Positions 2,424-36,139 of a stretch of DNA of 36,139 nucleotides are shown here, one piece after another. The position numbers and the translations under genes are program-made. Source of the DNA: Bacteroidales bacterium (GTDB lineage Bacteria; Bacteroidota; Bacteroidia; Bacteroidales; P3); contig JAFXMW010000109.1 of NCBI GenBank assembly GCA_017530105.1, positions 1 to 36,139 on the forward strand, written 5' to 3'. Below the pieces are notes generated by a model that saw only the letters and a list, made by a program, of their open reading frames with translations, had not been told where the DNA came from and searched no databases. Every line of letters begins with the position of its first letter. Within the stretch, counting starts at the first letter, position 1.

Positions 2424-3563
2424 TTATTCTTTCGAAAGTCTTTCCATACGGTCTTTGAGCATCCGGTAAACCTCCATGCTCCAAGTGATGCCGATGTTGG
2501 CCTGCAGAGAGTTGCTGACCAGCGGAGCGGCGTGGTTGTAGTCGGTGGTGCGGCGGTTGGCCACAAAGGCGTGCAGGCGGAAGTCGGGACAGGTCTTGGG
2601 GTGGTATTCCACACCGAGGCCGTAAGTAAGGTAGCTGTGGCCCGACTCGCAGAAGATGTCGTAGAAGCCCGAGTTGATGTTGCCGAAACCGGGCAGCACC
2701 TGTTCCGAACGGTTCTGCTCGTAGGCACCCTTGACAAAGATGTTGAACTCCTTGTTGAAATAGATGTTGGCGCAGCTCACCACGGCGAAGTTGTTGCCCC
2801 AGTCGTTCATGGCGTTGGCGTGGTGGATGAGGTCGAGGTAGATGTCCCACTTGTCGTATTCCAGTTCATGGCCTATAGCAATGTAGTTCATGTATTTGCG
2901 GTCCGGGCGCTGGAACATGTTGACCGAGTGGAGCAGTTTGAGATGCCCCACCCTGCCGCTATAGAATAGGTTGAACGACATGAGGCCGCTTTTCCACTCC
3001 TGCCCGGGGGCGAAGCCGAGGCCTGCACCGTAGTGGACGTAGGGCGAGTTGCCCACCTGCAGCAGGAGCATCTGGCTGGCGTCGTCGCTCTTGTAGGCTG
3101 CCGCCACGGCGGGCTGAAAGCAATAGAAATTGTCCCAATAATAGGTGCTGAAGAGCACGTTGATGGGAGGGGCGTCGTACTCGAAGCCGCCGACGGCAAG
3201 AGCGTCCTTACCGAAACGGAGCATCCAGTTGGGCGACGGCGAATAGTTGATGTAGAGGAAGTCGGTATTGTCGAAGAGGCTGACATTGCCCGCGTTGGCA
3301 ATGATGCGCTGACGGAAGAAATAGCTGAACTTCTCGCCAATTGGGCCGCCGATGACAAAGTTGAAATAGCGGCCATGGAAGCCGTAGGGGGTCTGGGTCA
3401 GCGAGTCGACGCCCTCCACGGTGTTGTGGAAGTAGTCGAAGTCGGCACGGGCCTCGAGTTTGATTTGTGTGAAGATGGGAGTGAAATCCACCTGAGCCGA
3501 AGAGACTGATGCAAAGGCAAGCATTGCAAAGAGCGGTAAGAGTCGTAAATGTTTTTGTATCAT
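2424..3563 (-). CDS. outer-membrane beta-barrel porin (phosphate-selective porin O/P-like)
   Basis: The product has 379 residues. The reading frame is open further upstream, but the ATG at 3563-3561 begins a good signal peptide (MIQKHLRLLPLFAMLAFASV, cleavage probably after SSA). It also lies downstream of a -7 promoter motif at 3599-3606, so I place the start there. The mature protein has alternating aromatic and polar strands, for example in FHGRYFNFVIGG, WMLRFGKDALAVGG and YDKWDIYLDLIHHA. Such strands are typical of Bacteroidota porins of the OprP/OprO type. It presumably forms an outer-membrane channel; the solute is unknown. It is transcribed away from the antiporter at 3727 and may lead the minus-strand group, although a gap of about 80 bp separates it from the next gene. 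Confidence 0.6.
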   Translation of the reverse strand: MIQKHLRLLPLFAMLAFASVSSAQVDFTPIFTQIKLEARADFDYFHNTVEGVDSLTQTPYGFHGRYFNFVIGGPIGEKFSYFFRQRIIANAGNVSLFDNTDFLYINYSPSPNWMLRFGKDALAVGGFEYDAPPINVLFSTYYWDNFYCFQPAVAAAYKSDDASQMLLLQVGNSPYVHYGAGLGFAPGQEWKSGLMSFNLFYSGRVGHLKLLHSVNMFQRPDRKYMNYIAIGHELEYDKWDIYLDLIHHANAMNDWGNNFAVVSCANIYFNKEFNIFVKGAYEQNRSEQVLPGFGNINSGFYDIFCESGHSYLTYGLGVEYHPKTCPDFRLHAFVANRRTTDYNHAAPLVSNSLQANIGITWSMEVYRMLKDRMERLSKE

Positions 3564-3726: not shown

Positions 3727-5976
3727 ATGTCGTCACTACCTCCTATCTTTCTGGATCTTGCCATCATACTGATTACTGCCGGCGCCATCACCATTGTGTT
3801 CAAGTGGCTGAAGCAGCCTTTGGTACTTGGCTATATTGTTGCAGGTTTCTTTATCGGTCCCTATTTCCCTTGGTTTCCTGCCATTACCGACGTCTCCAAC
3901 GTCCATGTGTGGAGCGACATCGGCATCGTGTTCCTGATGTTTGCTTTGGGATTGGAATTCAGCATCAAGAAACTGAAGCGGGTGGGTGCCACAGGAGCCA
4001 TCACGGCTTTGACGGAGCTGGTGATTATGTTCGTCATCGGCAACACGGTGGGGCATCTGCTGGGCATGGGCAACATGGACAGTATCTTTCTGGGCTGTAT
4101 GCTGTCCATCTCGTCCACCACGATTATCATCAAGTCGTTTGACGACCTGAAACTGAAACAGCAGCGTTTCACAAGCACAGTGACGGCAGTGCTGGTGGTG
4201 GAGGATTTGATAGCGGTGCTGCTGCTGGTGGTGCTTTCGACACTGAGTGTGGGTAAGAGCTTCAACGGCGCAGAACTGGGCTTGAGTCTGGTGAAACTGG
4301 TGTTCTCGCTGATAGTGTGGTTTACCTTCGGCATATTCTTAATCCCGACGTTCCTGCGCTGGATGCGCAAATGGATGACGGAAGAGACGCTGTGCATTGT
4401 GGCTGTGGGCTTGTGCTTTGGGATGGTGGTGCTGGCCGACTTTGCCGGCTTTTCCACGGCTCTGGGTGCTTTTGTGATGGGTGCCATCCTGAGCGAGACC
4501 ATCGAGGCCGATGTGATTCACCGTATCATCACCCCTATCAAGAACCTGTTCGGTGCGGTGTTTTTCGTGTCGGTGGGGATGCTGGTGAACCCCGAGGTGC
4601 TGGTGAAATATATCGGGCCGATACTGATTATTGCAGGCATCATTGTGGTGTTTAAGTCGCTATCGGCCACAACAGGTATCCTGCTTAGCGGAAAGCCCCT
4701 TAAGACTGCCATGCAGGGCGGTTTCTGCTTCTGCCAGATAGGTGAGTTCAGCTTTATCATTGCCGGGCTGGGTCTGAGCTACCATGTGATTGACCCAAAT
4801 CTCTACCCCATTATCGTGACGGTATCGATACTGACGACCTTTGTCACCCCCTACATGATTAAAGCAGGGCTTCCCGCATACGAGTGGATTTACCCCAAAC
4901 TCCCCATGCGCTTCAAACAGGCGTTGGAGCGGTACAGCAGTTCCGGACGGGTGAACACACACGAGAAGAAACTGAGCACTTTTGTAAGAAAGCAGCTGAC
5001 ATCGATACTCTTCTACAGTGCCATCCTGGTGGCGCTCGGACTGCTGAGCTCCCTGTGGCTGAAGCCGCTTATCAACAACACCTTTGAGGCTTGGAAGATT
5101 CCGGCCATCTGGGGCAACCTGTTGGGCATGATTGCAACACTGCTGATTATGGCACCGTTCCTGTGGGCTCTGGCGGTGAAGAACGTAAACCGCGAGCGTA
5201 TCAGGAAGATGCTGCACACCTATAGCCACAGCCAGGTGGCTGTGATCCCCCTTCTGGCTCTGCGTTATTTTATCACCTTGTTTATTGTGGGTTGGATGAT
5301 TTCGACCTACGTACACTTGGCCGTGGGTTTGGTGGTGGTGGTGGCCATCGTGGTGGTGGCGGCAGTGCTGCTCTCGAGGAGGGCGACAGACTTCTACAAC
5401 CGCATCGAAGACCATTTTGTCACCAATTTCTATCAACGCCAGGCTCAGAACTCATTCAAGATTCCCGAGTCGCTGGAGAAGAACTTTGTCATGGAACGTA
5501 TGGTCGTGACCGCCTACTCGCCCTTTGCCGGAAAGAGTTTGAAGGATTCGCGTTTCAGGCAGGACTATGGGGTGAACATCATCTCCATAGAACGTGCCGG
5601 AAAGATTTACGACCTGCCCGACAAGGAGATGCTCATCATGCCCACCGACCGGCTGACGGTGCTGGGCAACGAGGAACAGCTGGCCCATGTGCGCTCGGCC
5701 ATAGAGGTTGAACCCGACATGCTGGTGCACGACCATTCCGACAACGAAATCAACACTTACCGCTTAGAGGTGGGGAACAACAGCCGCCTGACGGGGGTAA
5801 GCATCAAACAATCCGACCTGATGGCGAACTACCAATCGATGGTGATAGCCATTGAACGCGGAAAAGACTACATGGTCAACCCTCCCGCCGACACCGTTTT
5901 CCACCATGGCGACATTGTGTGGTTGGTTTCGCCGCTGGATTTAAAGATTAACGACTTGTGCAAAACCTCTAATTAA
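3727..5976 (+). CDS. CPA2-family cation/proton antiporter with two C-terminal RCK_C (TrkA-C) domains
   Basis: The product has 749 residues. Residues about 8-385 form the Na+/H+ exchanger fold with some twelve hydrophobic segments; the segments LSISSTTIIIKSFDDL and VVEDLIAVLLLVVL are typical of the KefB/CPA2 group. A second hydrophobic block (about 425-560) adds four segments. The cytoplasmic tail has two TrkA-C-like modules (about 585-665 and 680-745), which usually bind a small regulator. There is no Rossmann-type TrkA-N domain, so it is not a classical KefB/KefC. It probably exchanges K+ or Na+ for protons across the inner membrane. It starts an apparent four-gene plus-strand run, with the protease gene only 32 bases further on. 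Confidence 0.85.
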   Translation: MSSLPPIFLDLAIILITAGAITIVFKWLKQPLVLGYIVAGFFIGPYFPWFPAITDVSNVHVWSDIGIVFLMFALGLEFSIKKLKRVGATGAITALTELVIMFVIGNTVGHLLGMGNMDSIFLGCMLSISSTTIIIKSFDDLKLKQQRFTSTVTAVLVVEDLIAVLLLVVLSTLSVGKSFNGAELGLSLVKLVFSLIVWFTFGIFLIPTFLRWMRKWMTEETLCIVAVGLCFGMVVLADFAGFSTALGAFVMGAILSETIEADVIHRIITPIKNLFGAVFFVSVGMLVNPEVLVKYIGPILIIAGIIVVFKSLSATTGILLSGKPLKTAMQGGFCFCQIGEFSFIIAGLGLSYHVIDPNLYPIIVTVSILTTFVTPYMIKAGLPAYEWIYPKLPMRFKQALERYSSSGRVNTHEKKLSTFVRKQLTSILFYSAILVALGLLSSLWLKPLINNTFEAWKIPAIWGNLLGMIATLLIMAPFLWALAVKNVNRERIRKMLHTYSHSQVAVIPLLALRYFITLFIVGWMISTYVHLAVGLVVVVAIVVVAAVLLSRRATDFYNRIEDHFVTNFYQRQAQNSFKIPESLEKNFVMERMVVTAYSPFAGKSLKDSRFRQDYGVNIISIERAGKIYDLPDKEMLIMPTDRLTVLGNEEQLAHVRSAIEVEPDMLVHDHSDNEINTYRLEVGNNSRLTGVSIKQSDLMANYQSMVIAIERGKDYMVNPPADTVFHHGDIVWLVSPLDLKINDLCKTSN

Positions 5977-16223: not shown

Positions 16224-18341
16224 ATGGAAAAAAAATTCTTTCTGCTTTTTGTGCCGATAGTGACAGTGCTCGCTGTCGGCACATTTTTTGAGAAATACCA
16301 CGGTCACGCTTTCGCCGCCGACCATATCTACAACGCATGGTGGTTTATCCTCCTCCTTGCCGCAACGGGCGTGGTATGCATTGCCGCCATTCTGCGGCAA
16401 AAACTATGGCACACGCCACATCGGCTGCTCCTTTACAGTGCCGCGGTATTCATACTGCTGGGCGGAGGACTCACCACATGGACTGGACAACACGGAAGCC
16501 TCGCTTTGAAGCAAGGAGAGCCTTCCTCCACCTGCATCACCGACAACGGTGCCACCTTCAACCTGCCCTTCACCGTCACCCTCGACCGCTTTGAACTGAT
16601 GACCTATCCCGGCACCAAAGCACCCATGGACTTCATCAGCCATGTGACTGTGGATGGCAAGCAAGCCGCCATCTCCATGAACAATATCTACCGCCATCGG
16701 GGCTACCGCTTCTATCAAGCCGACTACGACATGCAGGGAGGCTCCACCCTCAGCGTGGCACACGACCCTTGGGGCATCGCCGTCACCTATCTCGGATACC
16801 TGATGATATTAGCTGGACTGCTGTGGATGTTTCTCACTCCCACATCCCGTTTCCGCAGGCTGCTTCGAGGGCTGCCCCTCATATTGTTGATGCTGGCCAG
16901 CAACGCACAAGCCACGCCAACAACACTGCCGCGCCACACCGCCGACTGCATGGGGCAGATGTACGTACTCTACAAAGGCCGTATCTGCCCGCTGCAAACC
17001 CTCGCCAAAGACTTTACCACCAAGCTCTGCGGCAACGCCACCTACCAAGGGCTGACCCCCGAACAGGTATTGAGCGGATGGCTCTTCTATTCAGGCGAAT
17101 GGATTGACGAACCCATGATAAAGATTAAAGGCAACAACCTTCGCCGTCAGTTGGGCATGGATGGCCGCTACACCTCCTTCGCCAACCTTCTTGCCCACCA
17201 AGACCTCTTCACCCAACAACCCCTGCCAAAAGACCTGCGGGCAGCCGACGAGAAACTCAATCTCATCAAGATGGTGACAGGCAGCGAAATGCTTAAAATC
17301 TATCCAGTCACCGACTCATTAGGAGCACTCAACTGGTATTCTCAAAACGACCCGCTACCCCTCTCTGTGGGCGAAGACGAATACCTTTTCATACGCAAAC
17401 AACTCGGCTATTGTCAGGAACTGGTAGTCACCGGCGATTTCACAACACTTGAGACGGTATTCCAAAAGACCGCCGAATACCAACGCAAGCAGGCCGCCGC
17501 CGTTTTGCCATCCCGCTTCCAATTCCGTGCCGAAAGGCTCTACAACGCGCTCTCAACAGGCCGTTGGCTCGCCATGACCAGTATCACACTGGGGCTGATA
17601 GCCTTCCTTCTTGCACTATATGCCCCATCAATGAATACTCGACACCCACGCCAGTCTTGGCATTTCCATATTGCCACGGCTGTCACCGCCCTGCTCACCC
17701 TCTTCCTGCTGCTCATCTTTGCCCTGCGCTGGATAGCCGGCGGACACGTTCCCATGGCCGGAGGGTTCGACAGCATGAACCTTATGGCCATAGCCATCGG
17801 TATCCTGTCTCTCTTTGCCGCACACCGTCACCCCTCGGCACCCTCCGTGGCACTCATGGCCATGGGGTTCTGCCTGCTGGTAGCCATGATGGGAGGCTCC
17901 AATCCTCCCGTCACCCACCTTATGCCGGTGCTCAGTTCCCCTCTCCTCTCCCTGCATGTAGCCGTCATCATGACAGCCTATGCCCTCTTCTTAATCTGTA
18001 TGCTGAGCAGTGTGGCGGCATTAATCCTGCCGTCACGCCGCAACCATTTTGAACGCACCAACCTACTCATGCTCTATCCCGCCGAGGCGCTGTTGGCGAC
18101 AGGAATCATTATCGGTGCCTTTTGGGCAAACATATCATGGGGCAACTACTGGTCGTGGGACCCGAAGGAAGTGTGGGCACTCATCACGCTGCTTGTCTAC
18201 CTATACCCTTTGCATCTATCCACTCGACAAGGCCATTCCACACTCCGGTTCCACATCTGGTGTATCGCCGCGTTCCTCTGTGTTGTGGTCACCTATTTTG
18301 GTGTCAACCTCCTGCTCGGCGGCATGCACTCCTACAACTAA
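16224..18341 (+). CDS. CcsB/CcsA (ResB/ResC) fusion, system II cytochrome c haem lyase
   Basis: The product has 705 residues. The ATG at 16224 starts MEKKFFLLFVPIVTVLAVG; an upstream GTG at 16176 would add a polar tail before the first membrane segment and is less likely. Residues about 1-220 are ResB-like: membrane segments flank a periplasmic part with FNLPFTVTLDRFEL and YRFYQADYDMQGG. After a second periplasmic region, residues about 450-705 are CcsA-like, with the WWD signature WGNYWSWDPKEVW at 639-651 and a conserved LHVAVIMTAYAL helix. The protein exports haem and joins it to CxxCH motifs. Being fourth in this operon, it probably matures the di-haem protein encoded just before it. Confidence 0.88.
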   Translation: MEKKFFLLFVPIVTVLAVGTFFEKYHGHAFAADHIYNAWWFILLLAATGVVCIAAILRQKLWHTPHRLLLYSAAVFILLGGGLTTWTGQHGSLALKQGEPSSTCITDNGATFNLPFTVTLDRFELMTYPGTKAPMDFISHVTVDGKQAAISMNNIYRHRGYRFYQADYDMQGGSTLSVAHDPWGIAVTYLGYLMILAGLLWMFLTPTSRFRRLLRGLPLILLMLASNAQATPTTLPRHTADCMGQMYVLYKGRICPLQTLAKDFTTKLCGNATYQGLTPEQVLSGWLFYSGEWIDEPMIKIKGNNLRRQLGMDGRYTSFANLLAHQDLFTQQPLPKDLRAADEKLNLIKMVTGSEMLKIYPVTDSLGALNWYSQNDPLPLSVGEDEYLFIRKQLGYCQELVVTGDFTTLETVFQKTAEYQRKQAAAVLPSRFQFRAERLYNALSTGRWLAMTSITLGLIAFLLALYAPSMNTRHPRQSWHFHIATAVTALLTLFLLLIFALRWIAGGHVPMAGGFDSMNLMAIAIGILSLFAAHRHPSAPSVALMAMGFCLLVAMMGGSNPPVTHLMPVLSSPLLSLHVAVIMTAYALFLICMLSSVAALILPSRRNHFERTNLLMLYPAEALLATGIIIGAFWANISWGNYWSWDPKEVWALITLLVYLYPLHLSTRQGHSTLRFHIWCIAAFLCVVVTYFGVNLLLGGMHSYN

Positions 18342-19834
18342 CGCTCTATCACCAAGCGGAGGGACGAGGAGCCTTGGGGCGATGAAAGGGTGGCTATATA
18401 GACTCCTGCGGCCAAGCCTTCGGTGGAGAGTGCGAAACTGTGTGCCTTCACCTCCATCCTCAGTGCCTCGTGACCCGACGCGTCGTGCACCATAAGGGTC
18501 AAGCCCTTCAACGATACCTGCCCGCCTATCTCCACCTTCAGTCGACCTCCACTGCTGACAGGATTGGGTACAATGGTGAAAGGCAATTCCCCTACGGCAG
18601 GGGCTATCCCTCCCGGCTGGGTGTGCGTGGTGTCTGTACTTCCCGTGTCTGGCGGGTTACCATAGCAATCAAAAAACACTGCGTTGCTCCACGGCGACCA
18701 CGTCATTGTGTCCTGCAAGAGACAGTCGTGGTGGCAACGGGCACGGACGTATGCCTGGAAATCCAATTCGGAGGTCATGCCATGGTCTGTCAGTTCTATT
18801 GAGGTGAGGCTTGTGGTGTCGCGCCACAATTCGTCGAAGGGGACATCTGTGAGTCCCCAGGCCACCTCATACAGGTTGCAATCCTCCACTTCGTCCCAGG
18901 CCAGATTGGGCAGAATCGACCCGTCCGGCACAACCCTCAACCCTTCCACCTCCGGGCAGCCATAGTCATAATCATCCGTGTCCGGGATAATGATTGGACA
19001 ATAACTATAATAACGCATCACTCCAGCCCACGAATGATCCCAAGTAATAGCTGTTACTGTGGAGTCGTCATAGTCAAGTCCTGCCACAAAGAAAGGACTG
19101 GGGCCACTATCACTATAATCATGCCCCGACCAATAGTAACCCTCATTAAAATTATCAGAAGATATACACTTAAAAGTAAAAATATAATCGGAATAACAGA
19201 ATGGATAAGTTCTTTTTGTTGCTTCTCTTCTGACATAGTTGCCAAGATAGAATGTATCCGATACCGTTATAGGCTCATCAAAATACAATGCATAACCCGG
19301 AATGATTGTATCCACCCTTTCGCACTTCGATGTGATTTCATGATGTATAGAATCCATAAAACTTTGGTGGTTAAAGTAGATGTAACAATCTGTGGGCTGC
19401 CCGTGTACAACATTCGAGGCGGTCAGGCGAATCTGGGGATTCTGATAGTCACCGCTGTCGAAAGTCACCAAAGCACCCCTTAAAATGTTATGCGTATATA
19501 CATTACGTTCTGGAATAGAATCCGGGGTAAGATGAAATCTCATGGCCACTCCCGCTATCCGGCAACGCCGATGACATGGTGGTAATACAAACCTTACTGC
19601 ATTCAACGAATTCCATTCCATGACACCTCTCGGGGATTCCCGTTGAGAAATTACATCGAAACGAATCACCGAGTCAAAATTACCTCTATTAGAATCAGAA
19701 TGTGCTCCAATATATTGTAACGACTCTAAATCATAATATATCGGCTTGTCAACACCAAAAGCGTAAAGCGTGTCTTGCGCCTTCAAGGCACCTAAGGCCA
19801 AGATAAAACACATAATAAGAAATACTTTTTTCAT
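18338..19834 (-). CDS. secreted protein with T9SS type A sorting domain and an FnIII-like domain
   Basis: The product has 498 residues with a signal peptide (MKKVFLIMCFILALGALKAQ). The long N-terminal region resembles nothing I know. Residues about 300-400 look like a fibronectin type III repeat (NLAWDEVEDCNLYEVAWG ... YVRARC ... WSPWSNAVFF). The last 75 residues are a T9SS sorting domain: FTIVPNPVSSGGRLKVEIGG, then GLAAGVYIATL and a basic end. It should be exported through the T9SS to the surface or medium; its activity is unknown. The N-terminal two thirds are visibly more AT-rich than the C-terminal third. Its TAG and the ccsBA TAA share the bases CTAA at 18338-18341. Confidence 0.8.
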   Translation of the reverse strand: MKKVFLIMCFILALGALKAQDTLYAFGVDKPIYYDLESLQYIGAHSDSNRGNFDSVIRFDVISQRESPRGVMEWNSLNAVRFVLPPCHRRCRIAGVAMRFHLTPDSIPERNVYTHNILRGALVTFDSGDYQNPQIRLTASNVVHGQPTDCYIYFNHQSFMDSIHHEITSKCERVDTIIPGYALYFDEPITVSDTFYLGNYVRREATKRTYPFCYSDYIFTFKCISSDNFNEGYYWSGHDYSDSGPSPFFVAGLDYDDSTVTAITWDHSWAGVMRYYSYCPIIIPDTDDYDYGCPEVEGLRVVPDGSILPNLAWDEVEDCNLYEVAWGLTDVPFDELWRDTTSLTSIELTDHGMTSELDFQAYVRARCHHDCLLQDTMTWSPWSNAVFFDCYGNPPDTGSTDTTHTQPGGIAPAVGELPFTIVPNPVSSGGRLKVEIGGQVSLKGLTLMVHDASGHEALRMEVKAHSFALSTEGLAAGVYIATLSSPQGSSSLRLVIER

Positions 19835-20053: not shown

Positions 20054-20158
20054 TTCGCTCGTTCTCCATTTCTTCGGGGGTATTTCTCCCATATTTCTCC
20101 CATCCTGAATGGGAGAAATATGGGAGAAATATGGGAGAAGTAACCCTGAAGGAGCGAA
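20054..20158. repeat. 105-bp dyad element, copy 1
   Basis: Outer arms TTCGCTCGTTC (20054-20064) and GAAGGAGCGAA (20148-20158) are complementary with one mismatch. Inside are two 11-bp units TTTCTCCCATA on the left (20083-20103) and three units ATGGGAGAAAT on the right (20109-20140), around the 5-bp centre CCTGA (20104-20108). The centre of the inner array is also the centre of the outer arms (20106). The slot for a third left unit is present but degenerate. Copy 2 at 35891-35995 has the same length and spacing. The element is non-coding, and could be a mobile palindromic repeat or a protein-binding array. Confidence 0.85.
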
Positions 20159-20826: not shown

Positions 20827-21612
20827 TTAGTTTCGCTTCATGAAGGTGTAGCCTTTCATGAGTCCAGTGTTGGCACTTCCGATGAATCCGAGTACCTGCT
20901 TGCCTTCGTCGGTGTGGCCGTAGCGTTCTTTGATTTCTTCGACGGCATGGCTGATGGTGTAGCCTTTCTGGAAGACGTAGCGGTAGATGTCGGTGATGTT
21001 GTTGATGGCTTCGCGGCTGAACCCCCTGCGTTGGAGTCCGAGGGAATTGACACCGGCATAGGAGATGGGGTAGCGCGCAGCCTTGACGAAGGGCGGGATG
21101 TCTTTGTCGACGAGAGAGCCTCCGGCGGTGATGACGTGTGAGCCGATGTGGATGAACTGGAGGCAGGCTGTTTTCCCACCGAGAATGACATAGTCGCCCA
21201 CAATGATGTGGCCGGCAAGGGTGGCATTGTTGGCAAAGACGCATTTGCTGCCCACCACACAGTCGTGTGCAACATGGACGTAGGCCATGAGGAGGTTGTA
21301 GGAGCCGATGACCGTGCGCCCCGAGGCGGAGGTGCCGCGGTTGATGGTGCAACATTCGCGTATGACGTTGTTGTCGCCGATTTCGCAGGTGGTGTATTCG
21401 CCATCGAATTTCAAATCCTGCGGTATGGCGGAAATGACGGAGCCGGGAAAGATATGGCAGTTTTTGCCTATCCGTGCACCGGGGTAGATGACCACGTTGG
21501 GTTCAATGACAGTGTTGTCACCGATAACCACATCTTCGCAAATGGTGGAGAAGTTGCCCACCTTTACGTTGTTGCCCAAAACGGCTTTGGGGTGTATGTC
21601 GTTTAATTGCAT
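20827..21612 (-). CDS. lpxA: LpxA, acyl-ACP--UDP-N-acetylglucosamine O-acyltransferase
   Basis: The product has 261 residues, the usual LpxA length. Residues about 5-190 are a left-handed beta helix of hexapeptide repeats (VLGNNVKVGNFSTI, VVIGDNTVIEPNV), followed by a helical C-terminal domain. The active-site segment AYVHVAHDC carries H113 and H116; H116 corresponds to the catalytic His125 of E. coli. The NRGT motif (91-94) and the segment IPQDLKF near residue 65 are also conserved. It catalyses the first step of lipid A synthesis in the cytoplasm. It follows lpxC by 20 bases, so the two are almost surely co-transcribed. Confidence 0.95.
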   Translation of the reverse strand: MQLNDIHPKAVLGNNVKVGNFSTICEDVVIGDNTVIEPNVVIYPGARIGKNCHIFPGSVISAIPQDLKFDGEYTTCEIGDNNVIRECCTINRGTSASGRTVIGSYNLLMAYVHVAHDCVVGSKCVFANNATLAGHIIVGDYVILGGKTACLQFIHIGSHVITAGGSLVDKDIPPFVKAARYPISYAGVNSLGLQRRGFSREAINNITDIYRYVFQKGYTISHAVEEIKERYGHTDEGKQVLGFIGSANTGLMKGYTFMKRN

Positions 21613-33591: not shown

Positions 33592-35052
33592 ATGAGATTT
33601 AAGTTCTTATCTGTCATTTTCATCGTCTCTGCCCTCCTTTGCGGAACAGCAAAAGCCGAAAATGTAGACCTCCAAACAGCAAAACAAATCGGTGCCTACT
33701 ATTTCACCGTGGCAACCGGAGCCAAAGCACCTGTCAGTGCCGACAACCTCAAATTAGCCTTACAATTCGACAACCCCACTCTCAGCATCCCCTCGCTGTA
33801 TGCCTTCAACGTGGCGGGCAACGGCTTCGTAGTGGTCTCGGCCTCCGACTGCACCGAACCCATCCTGGCCTACTCTCCCATCGGACACCTCGATCCTGAA
33901 AACATCAACCCCGCATGTCAATACATGCTCGACAGCTACTCCAAACTCATCAGCCAAAACCAGAACACCGACGCCACCCCAACTACCGAAGTCCTCGGCA
34001 TGTGGAAAGAACTGGCCGACCAAACCTTCTCCTACGAACCCGAAAGCAAAAGCATCCTCGTCCAAGCCCAATGGGACCAAGTCGAGCCTTACAACTACTA
34101 CAGCCCCGTCGTCAGCGGCGAGCGCTGCCCTGCCGGCTGCGTAGCCACTGCCATGGGCATGATTATCCACTACTGGAAACACCCCACCGTGGGCGGTAAC
34201 GAAAACTCCTCCACCTGCTCCTATTCCTGGAACGGAAAAACCTTGAAATACAAATTCCTCGTCGACTCCAACAAATTCGAATACGAAAAAATGCCCAACA
34301 AACTCACCTACCGCAGCCCCCTGGAGGAACAGAAAGCCATCGGCAAACTGCTTTTCGCCTGCGGCGTGACCGTTAAAATGGGCTTCAACGTCGACGGTAG
34401 CGGTGCCCATAGCGAGGACGTCCCCAATGCCTTTACCAATTGGTTTAAATACTCACCCGACATCACCTATGTAAAACGCCACCACACCAACGGCGGCACT
34501 CTCGTCTCCGATGCCGAATGGCTCTCCATGCTCCACAGCGAACTCGACGACTACGCCCGTCCCGTCTACTACAGCGCCCACGACCCCAATCCCAACACCT
34601 CTGGAGATGGTGCTGGTCACGCCTTTATCATTGCAGGCTCCTCCTCGTCAAGCAACTCCAAATTCTACATCCGCTGGGGCTGGGGCGGCAACAGCGACGG
34701 CTTCTTCACCCTTGCTCCCGCCACCTCCATTCAAACAACAGCCAGCGGCTACTCCTTCTCGGCCGGCCACGCCATGGTCTACAAAATCCACCCCAACAAC
34801 CTCGGCATCGACGACAACACCTCCTACTCCGAGGCCCCCTGCTACCCCAACCCCGCTTCCGACTACCTCATGATTCCCTCCAACCTCCCCCTCAACGCCA
34901 CCCTCGTAGTCTACGCCGCCGACGGCAAAATGGTTGACAAACAGGTTATCCCCGGCGGCACCGGCGAATACCGTCTCAACCTCCAAAGCTACGCCCCCGG
35001 TGTCTACATCTACCACCTCAACGGCAACGCCGTCAAATTCACCGTCAGATAA
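33592..35052 (+). CDS. C10 (streptopain-like) cysteine protease with T9SS type A sorting domain
   Basis: The product has 486 residues. A signal peptide (cleavage near TAKA, about residue 21) leads to an inhibitory propeptide (about 22-130, with the FVVVSASDCTEPILAYS pattern of Spi/C10 propeptides). The catalytic domain follows: nucleophile C183 in CPAGCVATAMGMIIHYW, histidine H343 in DGAGHAFIIAGS, and the IRWGWGGNSDGFFTL segment. The last 75 residues are a T9SS sorting domain (CYPNPASDYLMI ... SYAPGVYIYHLNGNAVKFTV). It should be exported as a zymogen to the cell surface or medium and degrade proteins there, like PrtT or interpain. A strong terminator hairpin follows its stop. Confidence 0.93.
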   Translation: MRFKFLSVIFIVSALLCGTAKAENVDLQTAKQIGAYYFTVATGAKAPVSADNLKLALQFDNPTLSIPSLYAFNVAGNGFVVVSASDCTEPILAYSPIGHLDPENINPACQYMLDSYSKLISQNQNTDATPTTEVLGMWKELADQTFSYEPESKSILVQAQWDQVEPYNYYSPVVSGERCPAGCVATAMGMIIHYWKHPTVGGNENSSTCSYSWNGKTLKYKFLVDSNKFEYEKMPNKLTYRSPLEEQKAIGKLLFACGVTVKMGFNVDGSGAHSEDVPNAFTNWFKYSPDITYVKRHHTNGGTLVSDAEWLSMLHSELDDYARPVYYSAHDPNPNTSGDGAGHAFIIAGSSSSSNSKFYIRWGWGGNSDGFFTLAPATSIQTTASGYSFSAGHAMVYKIHPNNLGIDDNTSYSEAPCYPNPASDYLMIPSNLPLNATLVVYAADGKMVDKQVIPGGTGEYRLNLQSYAPGVYIYHLNGNAVKFTVR

Positions 35053-35133: not shown

Positions 35134-35814
35134 ATGAAAAAAACTCTCACCCTCCTGCTCCTCACCTTCGCCGTTGCCTTTGCAGCACAAGCCCAGAACA
35201 TCACCGCTGCCGACAGCGCCACCCTCAACCGTATCCTCACCGCCAACAAACAATACCGCTCCCTGCAGAACAACTTCCGCCACGACCTCGTCAAAGTCAA
35301 GAAAAACACCCTCCAGCACCGCTACGGCACCCTCTACTACGAACAAGTCAACCCCGCCAAACACGGCGACACCGAAGCCAAGATAGCCATGCGCTACAAC
35401 AACCCCGAAGGCGAATACTACATCATCACCACCACACACCTCTACAACGGCATCGACGGACACAAACTCAAATTCAACTACCGCTACGTCCCCCTCATGA
35501 AACTCCTCGGCAACGCCCTCGCATGGGCCATGAACGGCGACATCTACAGCATCGTCACCGACCTCAACACCGACTTCCAGTTGGCCACCACCGCCACCCA
35601 CTACGTCGTTACCCTCACCGTCAAGAAAGGACACAACAAAGGCATCACCAAGATGCTGCTCAAATACGACAAAAAAACATGCCTCATCGACTACATGGAA
35701 ATCGAAGAAAAACTCGGTCTCATACACAAATACACCATGGGACTCGACGCTAAAGGCCAAACCCACAAACCCCTCCTCAACACCCCCATCGACCAGAAAG
35801 TCTACAAACTATAG
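35134..35814 (+). CDS. LolA-like periplasmic lipoprotein carrier
   Basis: The product has 226 residues with a signal peptide (MKKTLTLLLLTFAVAFAAQA, then Q). The mature protein has the LolA-like pattern: an N-terminal helix (SATLNRILTANKQYRSLQNN) and then beta strands with RYGTLYYEQVNPAK, KIAMRYNNPEGEYYIITTTH and GHKLKFNYRYVP. This is the half-open barrel fold that carries lipoproteins through the periplasm; Bacteroidota have several divergent copies. It has no cysteine near the start, so it is soluble. It stands between two terminators, so it is likely a single-gene unit. The family call is by pattern only; it could be another DUF with the same fold. Confidence 0.62.
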   Translation: MKKTLTLLLLTFAVAFAAQAQNITAADSATLNRILTANKQYRSLQNNFRHDLVKVKKNTLQHRYGTLYYEQVNPAKHGDTEAKIAMRYNNPEGEYYIITTTHLYNGIDGHKLKFNYRYVPLMKLLGNALAWAMNGDIYSIVTDLNTDFQLATTATHYVVTLTVKKGHNKGITKMLLKYDKKTCLIDYMEIEEKLGLIHKYTMGLDAKGQTHKPLLNTPIDQKVYKL

Positions 35815-35890: not shown

Positions 35891-35995
35891 TTCGCTCCTT
35901 CACCGTTTCTTATCCGTCAGTTCTCCCATATTTCTCCCATCCGCGATGGGAGAAATATGGGAGAAATATGGGAGAACTGGGGGTGAACGAGCGAA
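35891..35995. repeat. 105-bp dyad element, copy 2
   Basis: Outer arms TTCGCTCCTTC (35891-35901) and GAACGAGCGAA (35985-35995) match with one mismatch. The inner left array TTCTCCCATATTTCTCCCAT (35921-35940) faces three right units (35946-35977) around the 5-bp centre CCGCG (35941-35945). Length, spacing and centre are the same as in copy 1. The single mismatch in the outer arms is swapped left to right relative to copy 1. It lies between two converging genes, directly after the terminator of the LolA-like gene. Confidence 0.85.
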
Positions 35996-36025
35996 CCGTG
36001 GGTTGCCTGCACGGTTGTTATCGGG

Positions 36026-36139
36026 TTATCGTTTTATGGTCAGTTTCTGCGAGGAGGCACCTGCGGGGGTGCGGACAATGGCTATGTAGGTGCCTTCGGG
36101 CCAGCTGGAGGCGTCGATTGTGGCGGAGTGGCCTTGGCA
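36026..36139 (-). CDS. C-terminal end of a T9SS-secreted protein (cut by window edge)
   Basis: Only the last 37 codons and a TAA are in the window. They read ...ATIDASSWPEGTYIAIVRTP and end QKLTIKR. This is the end of a T9SS type A sorting domain: the G-x-Y-I strand and the basic C-terminus match the tails of the two other cargo proteins in this window. The function of the main part lies beyond the edge and is unknown. Confidence 0.8.
   Translation of the reverse strand, partial: CQGHSATIDASSWPEGTYIAIVRTPAGASSQKLTIKR

Follow-up and report, generated by a model that had tools for sequence, protein, structure and literature searches.

Dispersed 105-bp inverted arrays of 11-bp units in a Bacteroidales genome and its relatives

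Two copies of an inverted 11-bp array

The window analysed here comprises positions 1 to 36,139 of contig JAFXMW010000109.1, which belongs to a draft Bacteroidales genome of 2.75 Mb in 146 contigs with a completeness of 82.7% (assembly GCA_017530105.1, in the following G000). It contains two copies of a 105-bp element, 15.8 kb apart, in which units of 11 bp are arranged as two inverted arms around a short centre. A first-pass annotation of the window had placed both copies correctly and was right about their arms, units and spacing; a simpler description is a TTC or GAA motif every 11 bp with an additional 8-bp end unit. In the literature searched, which covered few subscription journals, no description of a 105-bp element of this kind was found. 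The features of the two copies and of the adjacent genes are as follows.

20054–20158, no strand assigned: copy 1 of the inverted array, 105 bp long and built of 11-bp units
20054–20103, minus strand: left arm of copy 1 as read from the sequence, end unit TTCGCTCG followed by TTC at 20062, 20073, 20084 and 20095 with an 11-bp period
20082–20103, minus strand: two tandem inner 11-bp units of copy 1, ATGGGAGAAAT on the minus strand
20104–20108, no strand assigned: centre of copy 1, 5 bp (CCTGA); the centre varies between copies
20109–20141, plus strand: three tandem inner 11-bp units of copy 1, ATGGGAGAAAT, ATGGGAGAAAT and ATGGGAGAAGT
20109–20158, plus strand: right arm of copy 1 as read from the sequence, GAA at 20115, 20126, 20137 and 20148, end unit terminating in GAGCGAA
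35891–35995, no strand assigned: copy 2 of the array, with 2+3 units as in copy 1
35941–35945, no strand assigned: centre of copy 2, 5 bp (CCGCG)
18338–19834, minus strand: gene of 498 amino acids without Pfam match at E 0.001; 219 bp separate its start from copy 1, which lies to the right
20827–21612, minus strand: gene for an LpxA-like acyltransferase, following copy 1 on the right, with a predicted 66-codon open reading frame between them
35134–35814, plus strand: gene of 226 amino acids without Pfam match at E 0.001, its end 76 bp ahead of copy 2

The inverted repeat formed by 20054–20103 and 20109–20158 displays 78% complementarity over 50 nt. With at most one mismatch, ATGGGAGAAAT occurs ten times in the window, exclusively within the two copies, at an expected number of 0.68, and none of 100 shuffled sequences reaches ten.

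The gene at 33592–35052, which precedes the 226-residue gene upstream of copy 2, carries Spi inhibitor, C10 peptidase and Por secretion-tail domains. The right flank of copy 2 (35980–36139) is common to two copies situated at contig ends (L200 and L214) and also matches one side of a copy that starts a contig of Bacteroidales bacterium UBA1208 (L073, 60–100), which carries the same element as G000. Copies with this common right flank are likely to lie in a longer repeat or at assembly joins.

Copy number, anatomy and spacing in the source genome

The first-pass annotation had proposed a genome-wide search and regarded a lack of further copies as a sign of chance or local duplication. Such a search for the core of the element, TTCTCCCAT-N{3,14}-ATGGGAGAA, finds 71 places in G000 and a single one for the reversed pattern. 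BLAST with the whole element gives at least 80 matches in G000, counted on both strands and with 40 of 77 candidates scored. For 66 of the 71 core places the copy was extracted together with its flanks, and these 66 copies form the set described below; one of the five places left out, C119:20523–20611, appears in a scan of the order for the GAA plan. Two further scans are uninformative, since a loose version of the core pattern matched at least 87 stretches of the contig collection and a mismatch-tolerant variant matched one place. The pattern also matched 16 viral stretches.

None of the 66 copies lies inside a gene, as judged by gene borders from our own open-reading-frame predictor, and two touch a gene end by 1–4 bp. 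Within the fetched DNA, predicted genes flank 54 copies on both sides and 12 on one side. At the 54 loci with genes on both sides, stop codons are closer to the copies (median distance 85 bp) than starts are (171 bp; p = 1e-5), and the gene context is tandem in 27, convergent in 16 and divergent in 11 cases.

The overall plan of the element is 50+5+50 bp, with TTC per 11 bp in the left arm, GAA per 11 bp in the right arm and 8-bp units at the ends. From the outside in, the left arm is composed of TTCGCTCG, four TTC motifs at 11-bp distance and six bases; five free bases follow and then the mirror image with GAA, and the column consensus of the G000 copies reads TTCGCTCG...CGAGCGAA. When an inner unit is counted at 8 or more matching bases out of 11, 46 of the 66 copies have five inner units (3+2 or 2+3), 11 have four, seven have six, and one copy each has three and seven. 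Irrespective of this number, the 105-bp frame stays constant. At positions 3–22 from the centre, 64–66 of the 66 copies are identical on both sides; positions 3–11 were required by the search pattern itself, and 12–22 were free. The outer slots are degenerate, with certain bases excluded at each position, as exemplified by position +27 (C in 27 copies, G in 25, T in 12, A in 2) and position +40 (G in 46, C in 11, A in 9, T in none). The former description of the spacers as free is therefore not quite right.

In a census of 0.50 Mb of G000 loci surrounding the copies, all 181 occurrences of the exact unit fall within arrays, and one-armed arrays are absent (0 vs 66 two-armed). Lag-11 repeats outside genes in the examined loci consist entirely of the main word, both in G000 (43 of 43) and in the related genome G007 (29 of 29). 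The same census bears on the possibility of a sequence that acts like an uptake signal and spreads because DNA uptake is biased, as in the DNA uptake sequence (DUS) dialects of Neisseriaceae. Species-specific words, inverted pairs and copies that lie apart are in line with such a signal, and the DUS dialects are a known case in which related species differ in their genome-wide word (PMC3630211). However, outside arrays the exact single unit is absent (0 expected), and units with no more than one mismatch number 10, where 9 are expected. Single units thus show no enrichment, and an uptake sequence is rejected as very improbable.

Copies in G000 keep apart from each other. The 15 known intervals between neighbouring copies of one contig, located on 12 contigs, all measure at least 11.6 kb, where 6.3 intervals under 11 kb are expected (P = 0.00015). 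With the degenerate C10 copy added, 8 of 16 intervals lie within 14.1–16.4 kb, a cluster with P = 0.0053 under a model of 11-kb exclusion and a 2.3-kb bracket chosen post hoc; other bracket widths give P = 0.034 (1.5 kb) and 0.020 (3 kb). Among relatives, the better copies of G073 have none of 14 intervals under 11 kb (P = 0.0046), and degenerate copies on its contig C45 are as near as 4.8 kb. In G007 one of seven intervals is under 11 kb (P = 0.0002), but contigs break at copies in this genome. G057 has two of six (P = 0.047), and G044 displays a minimum interval of 4.4 kb at weak significance.

The over-dispersion in G000, including the eight clustered intervals, and the closer vicinity to stops than to starts would suit a site that organises the chromosome and recurs at intervals along it, such as one where DNA wraps around gyrase or a nucleoid protein, or where a partition or occlusion protein is anchored. 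Moreover, the gyrase motif of E. coli has two periodic areas, to which the two helically phased inverted arms bear a resemblance (PMC6379681). However, a preference of the gyrase type would be satisfied without one identical 11-mer throughout the copies, the period of 11 bp differs from the 10.7 bp per turn of the gyrase model (PMC6379681), and spacing is irregular in G044 and G073. In addition, selection against recombination between close repeats offers a simple alternative cause for the mutual avoidance of copies. A chromosome-organising role appears rather unlikely.

The same plan with other words in related genomes

Some other species of the genus carry arrays of the same plan built from different 11-mers (GAAGTATATGA, GAACAATCGAA), and looser 11-bp arrays with unrelated words are present in more. 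The G000 word was searched in 41 genomes and matches three, namely G000 itself and two weakly. A word-free half-array pattern, applied to 59 genomes, greatly exceeds the reversed control in G000, G007, G055, G057 and G073 and exceeds it somewhat in G022, G044, G047 and G059, with most genomes near the control. The full TTC/GAA plan with 11-bp period, a centre of 16–17 bp and own words is found 26 times in 35 loci of G007 and 13 times in 13 loci of G057 (reversed controls 0), the strict count being 46 in 65 records of G000 and 0 in 40 loci of G073. A looser 105-bp template (at least 26 of 38 bases) fits 35 of the 40 G073 copies. One arm of these copies is degenerate but retains its TT at the 11-bp period; TT/AA every 11 bp and the 105-bp length persist in this set, which was chosen with a template that includes the TT/AA bases.

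With its own word, G044 yields 21 full-template matches over 400 kb, against one for the reversed control, and two-armed arrays number 22 over 400 kb. The plan pattern gives 374 and 348 matches in this genome, overlapping matches counted (control 0), and its copies terminate in CCGTCTG. G007 has 28 two-armed and nine one-armed arrays, and all eight one-armed arrays displayed end at runs of N. A fixed GAA plan, which detects GAA-type words only, was scanned over 295 genomes of the order, among which three belong to the family of G000 and none to another species of its genus. It matches 70 places per strand in G000 and two per strand in G128, where the matches are AT-rich, chance-like and carry three mismatches; the reversed control matched four genomes. 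A comparison of flanks (17 of 85 vs 1 of 90) shows 11-bp arrays with many words, but it is confounded by gap length, and its three test genes were picked because both G000 and G073 hold a copy there.

In L236 (G012, 1440–1660) and in L420, two adjoining arrays with different 11-bp words share one intergenic region, so that one genome can hold several words. Beside the array, L223 (G017, 170–220) and L285 (G073, 4051–4095) display a tandem expansion of the end unit into CTTCGCTCTGC- or GGAAGAGCGGA-like 11-bp repeats. Stretch L086 of Bifidobacterium leontopitheci, where the centre measures 14 bp, differs from the G000 element. At 2580–3260 of this stretch and in further stretches, dense palindromes with CTCCCGG...CGGGAG-like ends surround TTCTCCCAT-N14-ATGGGAGAA cores, the core being present on many contigs of one strain; these palindromes look like a separate repeat family.

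The loci examined in G000 and in G007 each hold one word, and words differ between species. The feature common to the species is the geometry, neither the sequence nor base pairing, as would be expected of protein sites arrayed in order along double-stranded DNA.

A structured RNA had been among the first options, and a long RNA hairpin acting as terminator, mRNA stabiliser or small RNA would account for the closeness to stop codons and for the strong folding of G000 and G007 copies. The median best-strand fold z is −6.3 in G000 (66 copies) and −9.0 in G007 (23 copies), and 64 of the 66 G000 copies have strong hairpin potential (best-strand z < −3). However, complementary bases at mirrored positions of the 66 G000 copies are close to the number expected under independence, giving no sign of covariation. 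In G073, the arms are non-complementary (837 paired positions observed vs 820 expected of 1540, 35 copies), the median z is −2.5 and 14 of 35 copies have strong hairpin potential. The mixed tandem, convergent and divergent contexts also speak against a hairpin, and none of the Rfam 15 covariance models matches the window at the gathering threshold. The absence of covariation between the arms, in combination with the loss of complementarity in G073 at kept phase and length, argues for read-out as double-stranded DNA rather than as hairpin RNA, and structured RNA is rejected as improbable. The proposed selection on the palindrome accordingly stands for the 11-bp register of each arm, but not for the pairing of arms.

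Inheritance and position of the copies

Between the close relatives G020 and G042, three orthologous elements share 89.5–92.4% identity with no gap in 315 columns (3 × 105 bp); their flanks share 81–90% with 112 gap columns. A copy at DUF4301 common to G055 and G073 has 66% ungapped identity, copies of G017 and G073 at three places have 33–49%, and orthologous copies of G000 and G073 resemble each other no more than random pairs do and are not locally related. So, recent copies are inherited in place with their phase kept, and over longer times the sequence is fully replaced, for which re-insertion and in-place homogenisation would account equally well.

Nine intergenic regions with an element are common to G000 and G073 among 20 listed syntenic window pairs, which need at least two reciprocal best hits and of which four listings come from a many-gene window record. 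No element gap is shared in seven window pairs of G000 and G007 or in five of G073 and G007; one further G007 copy is situated upstream of a QueA-like gene, as in G000. An element is present in 33 of 180 gaps (about 18%) that offer 150 bp or more in addition to it, so that a good part of the positional sharing can be due to chance. G000 loci mapped onto contiguous stretches show an element in none of two in G073 and in one of four in G044, where three of the four gaps are shorter than 100 bp. In view of this chance occupancy and of the comparisons with G007, conserved position between G000 and G073 is easily overrated.

A further explanation, also among the first options, is a non-autonomous element resembling a miniature inverted-repeat transposable element (MITE). 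It would consist of two transposon-type ends, each with several 11-bp transposase sites, joined back to back with no cargo between them. A transposase encoded at another place would spread it, and the species-specific words would follow this transposase. Transposon ends such as those of Tn7 hold arrays of transposase sites. Features of MITEs are present in the terminal inverted CTTCGCTC/GAGCGAAG, the position outside genes and the many copies; tens of near-identical copies in G007 and G057 form species-specific families. Chance re-occupation is made plausible by the gap occupancy, and the unrelated orthologous copies of G000 and G073 and the lack of shared gaps with G007 are in line with it.

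However, no consistent target duplication emerges over 63 combinations of length and offset; five exceed z 2.5, and the best (z 3.4) reaches a per-base identity of 0.33 vs 0.26. Transposase screening of G000 was aimed at Y1 only, and PF01797 (Y1/RAYT) has no match in this 82.7%-complete draft, where 5 of 14 control genomes are positive. Among the 252 neighbour genes, grouped into 30 BLAST clusters, no transposase was recognised by eye in the 12 clusters displayed, with no family search run. The missing Y1 transposase and the lack of a consistent target duplication, together with the absence of one-armed copies in the G000 loci, weaken the MITE explanation. Furthermore, copies keep apart, and length and phase stay constant across families with little common sequence, ends included. 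The homogeneous, numerous and species-specific families leave mobility a tentative second explanation, possible but doubtful.

A putative protein-site array and known systems

The explanation we prefer, with belief and doubt in about equal measure, is that the elements are inverted arrays of 11-bp binding sites for a putative trans-acting protein, multiplied and replaced as species families. Among the options of the first-pass annotation, the binding array with an 11-bp helical repeat is best supported, owing to conserved phase, fixed length and position-specific degeneracy. Each arm would provide about four to five head-to-tail sites, one per helical turn, and the arms would meet head-to-head at the short free centre, giving a symmetric protein complex about 105 bp long. 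PhoB/OmpR-type regulators have head-to-tail sites at an 11-bp pitch. Since the plan is kept in several species while the word changes, word and protein probably change together, and within a genome the set is homogenised, probably by copying of elements into or over intergenic sites. A protein that reads the sites, its belonging to one family in all species and homogenisation by copying are what we infer from these patterns. The mobile and chromosome-organising explanations concern the role of the putative protein and overlap with the binding-site array, so the likelihoods given to them are not meant to add up.

As a more speculative extension, held with low confidence, the arrays could form a genus-wide system of chromosomal sites with fixed 105-bp geometry, a changeable word and a fast-evolving DNA-binding protein, in which some 70 or more sites per genome would be rewritten at species divergence and delimit sections of the chromosome. 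If proteins do bind the arrays, the genus offers many natural replicates of a genome-wide switch in DNA-binding specificity at constant geometry, and concerted evolution of dispersed sites becomes directly testable. If they are mobile, they represent an unusual non-autonomous element with a body made only of phased binding sites. In either case the arrays label tens of intergenic regions in each genome, in Bacteroidales that have received little study, with a risk of being mistaken for terminators, small RNAs or artefacts of assembly.

BIME-2 and strong gyrase sites share with the element the intergenic location and two helically phased arms around a centre, but the gyrase motif is a degenerate G/C periodicity, whereas here an identical 11-bp word is repeated (PMC6379681). 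The DUS dialects also combine a genome-wide word that differs among relatives with inverted pairs; DUS, however, are short single words that occur in thousands and also in genes (PMC3630211), in contrast to a word confined to 105-bp arrays. TAACTGA repeats (PMC4679880) are heptamers and thus different from 11-bp arrays.

REPINs are likewise numerous extragenic inverted repeats of similar length, but in them the 16-bp ends are conserved, the spacer varies, and compensatory changes and a RAYT are present (PMC3116915). In the present element the core is conserved, covariation is absent and a Y1 transposase was not found. The GTAG or CGTC end tag described for REPIN/REP-RAYT (PMC3733652) is absent from the G000 consensus; in G044 the terminal sequence is CCGTCTG. 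A REPIN is rejected on account of the compensatory changes and of the Y1 transposase, both missing, the latter in the 82.7%-complete draft. Another known element is the BrickBuilt MITE of Porphyromonas gingivalis, with 23-nt direct repeats, leader and tail, and 19 copies in one strain (PMC4596501). Both are Bacteroidales elements that are always intergenic, have internal tandem repeats and inverted ends and a limited host range; the arrays described here differ in their 11-bp units, inverted arms, fixed 105 bp and words that change in relatives.

In the parC centromere of plasmid R1, 11-bp repeats arranged head-to-tail are bound by ParR (cited in PMC9426499). Whereas parC is one plasmid locus with its own partition genes, the element has about 70 chromosomal copies and inverted arms; ParR/ParM-type genes are absent among the eight window proteins scanned with Pfam, and the neighbours of other copies were BLAST-clustered without being named. 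What the element shares with parC is the ordered series of 11-bp direct repeats within each arm, in parC with a word specific to the partner protein.
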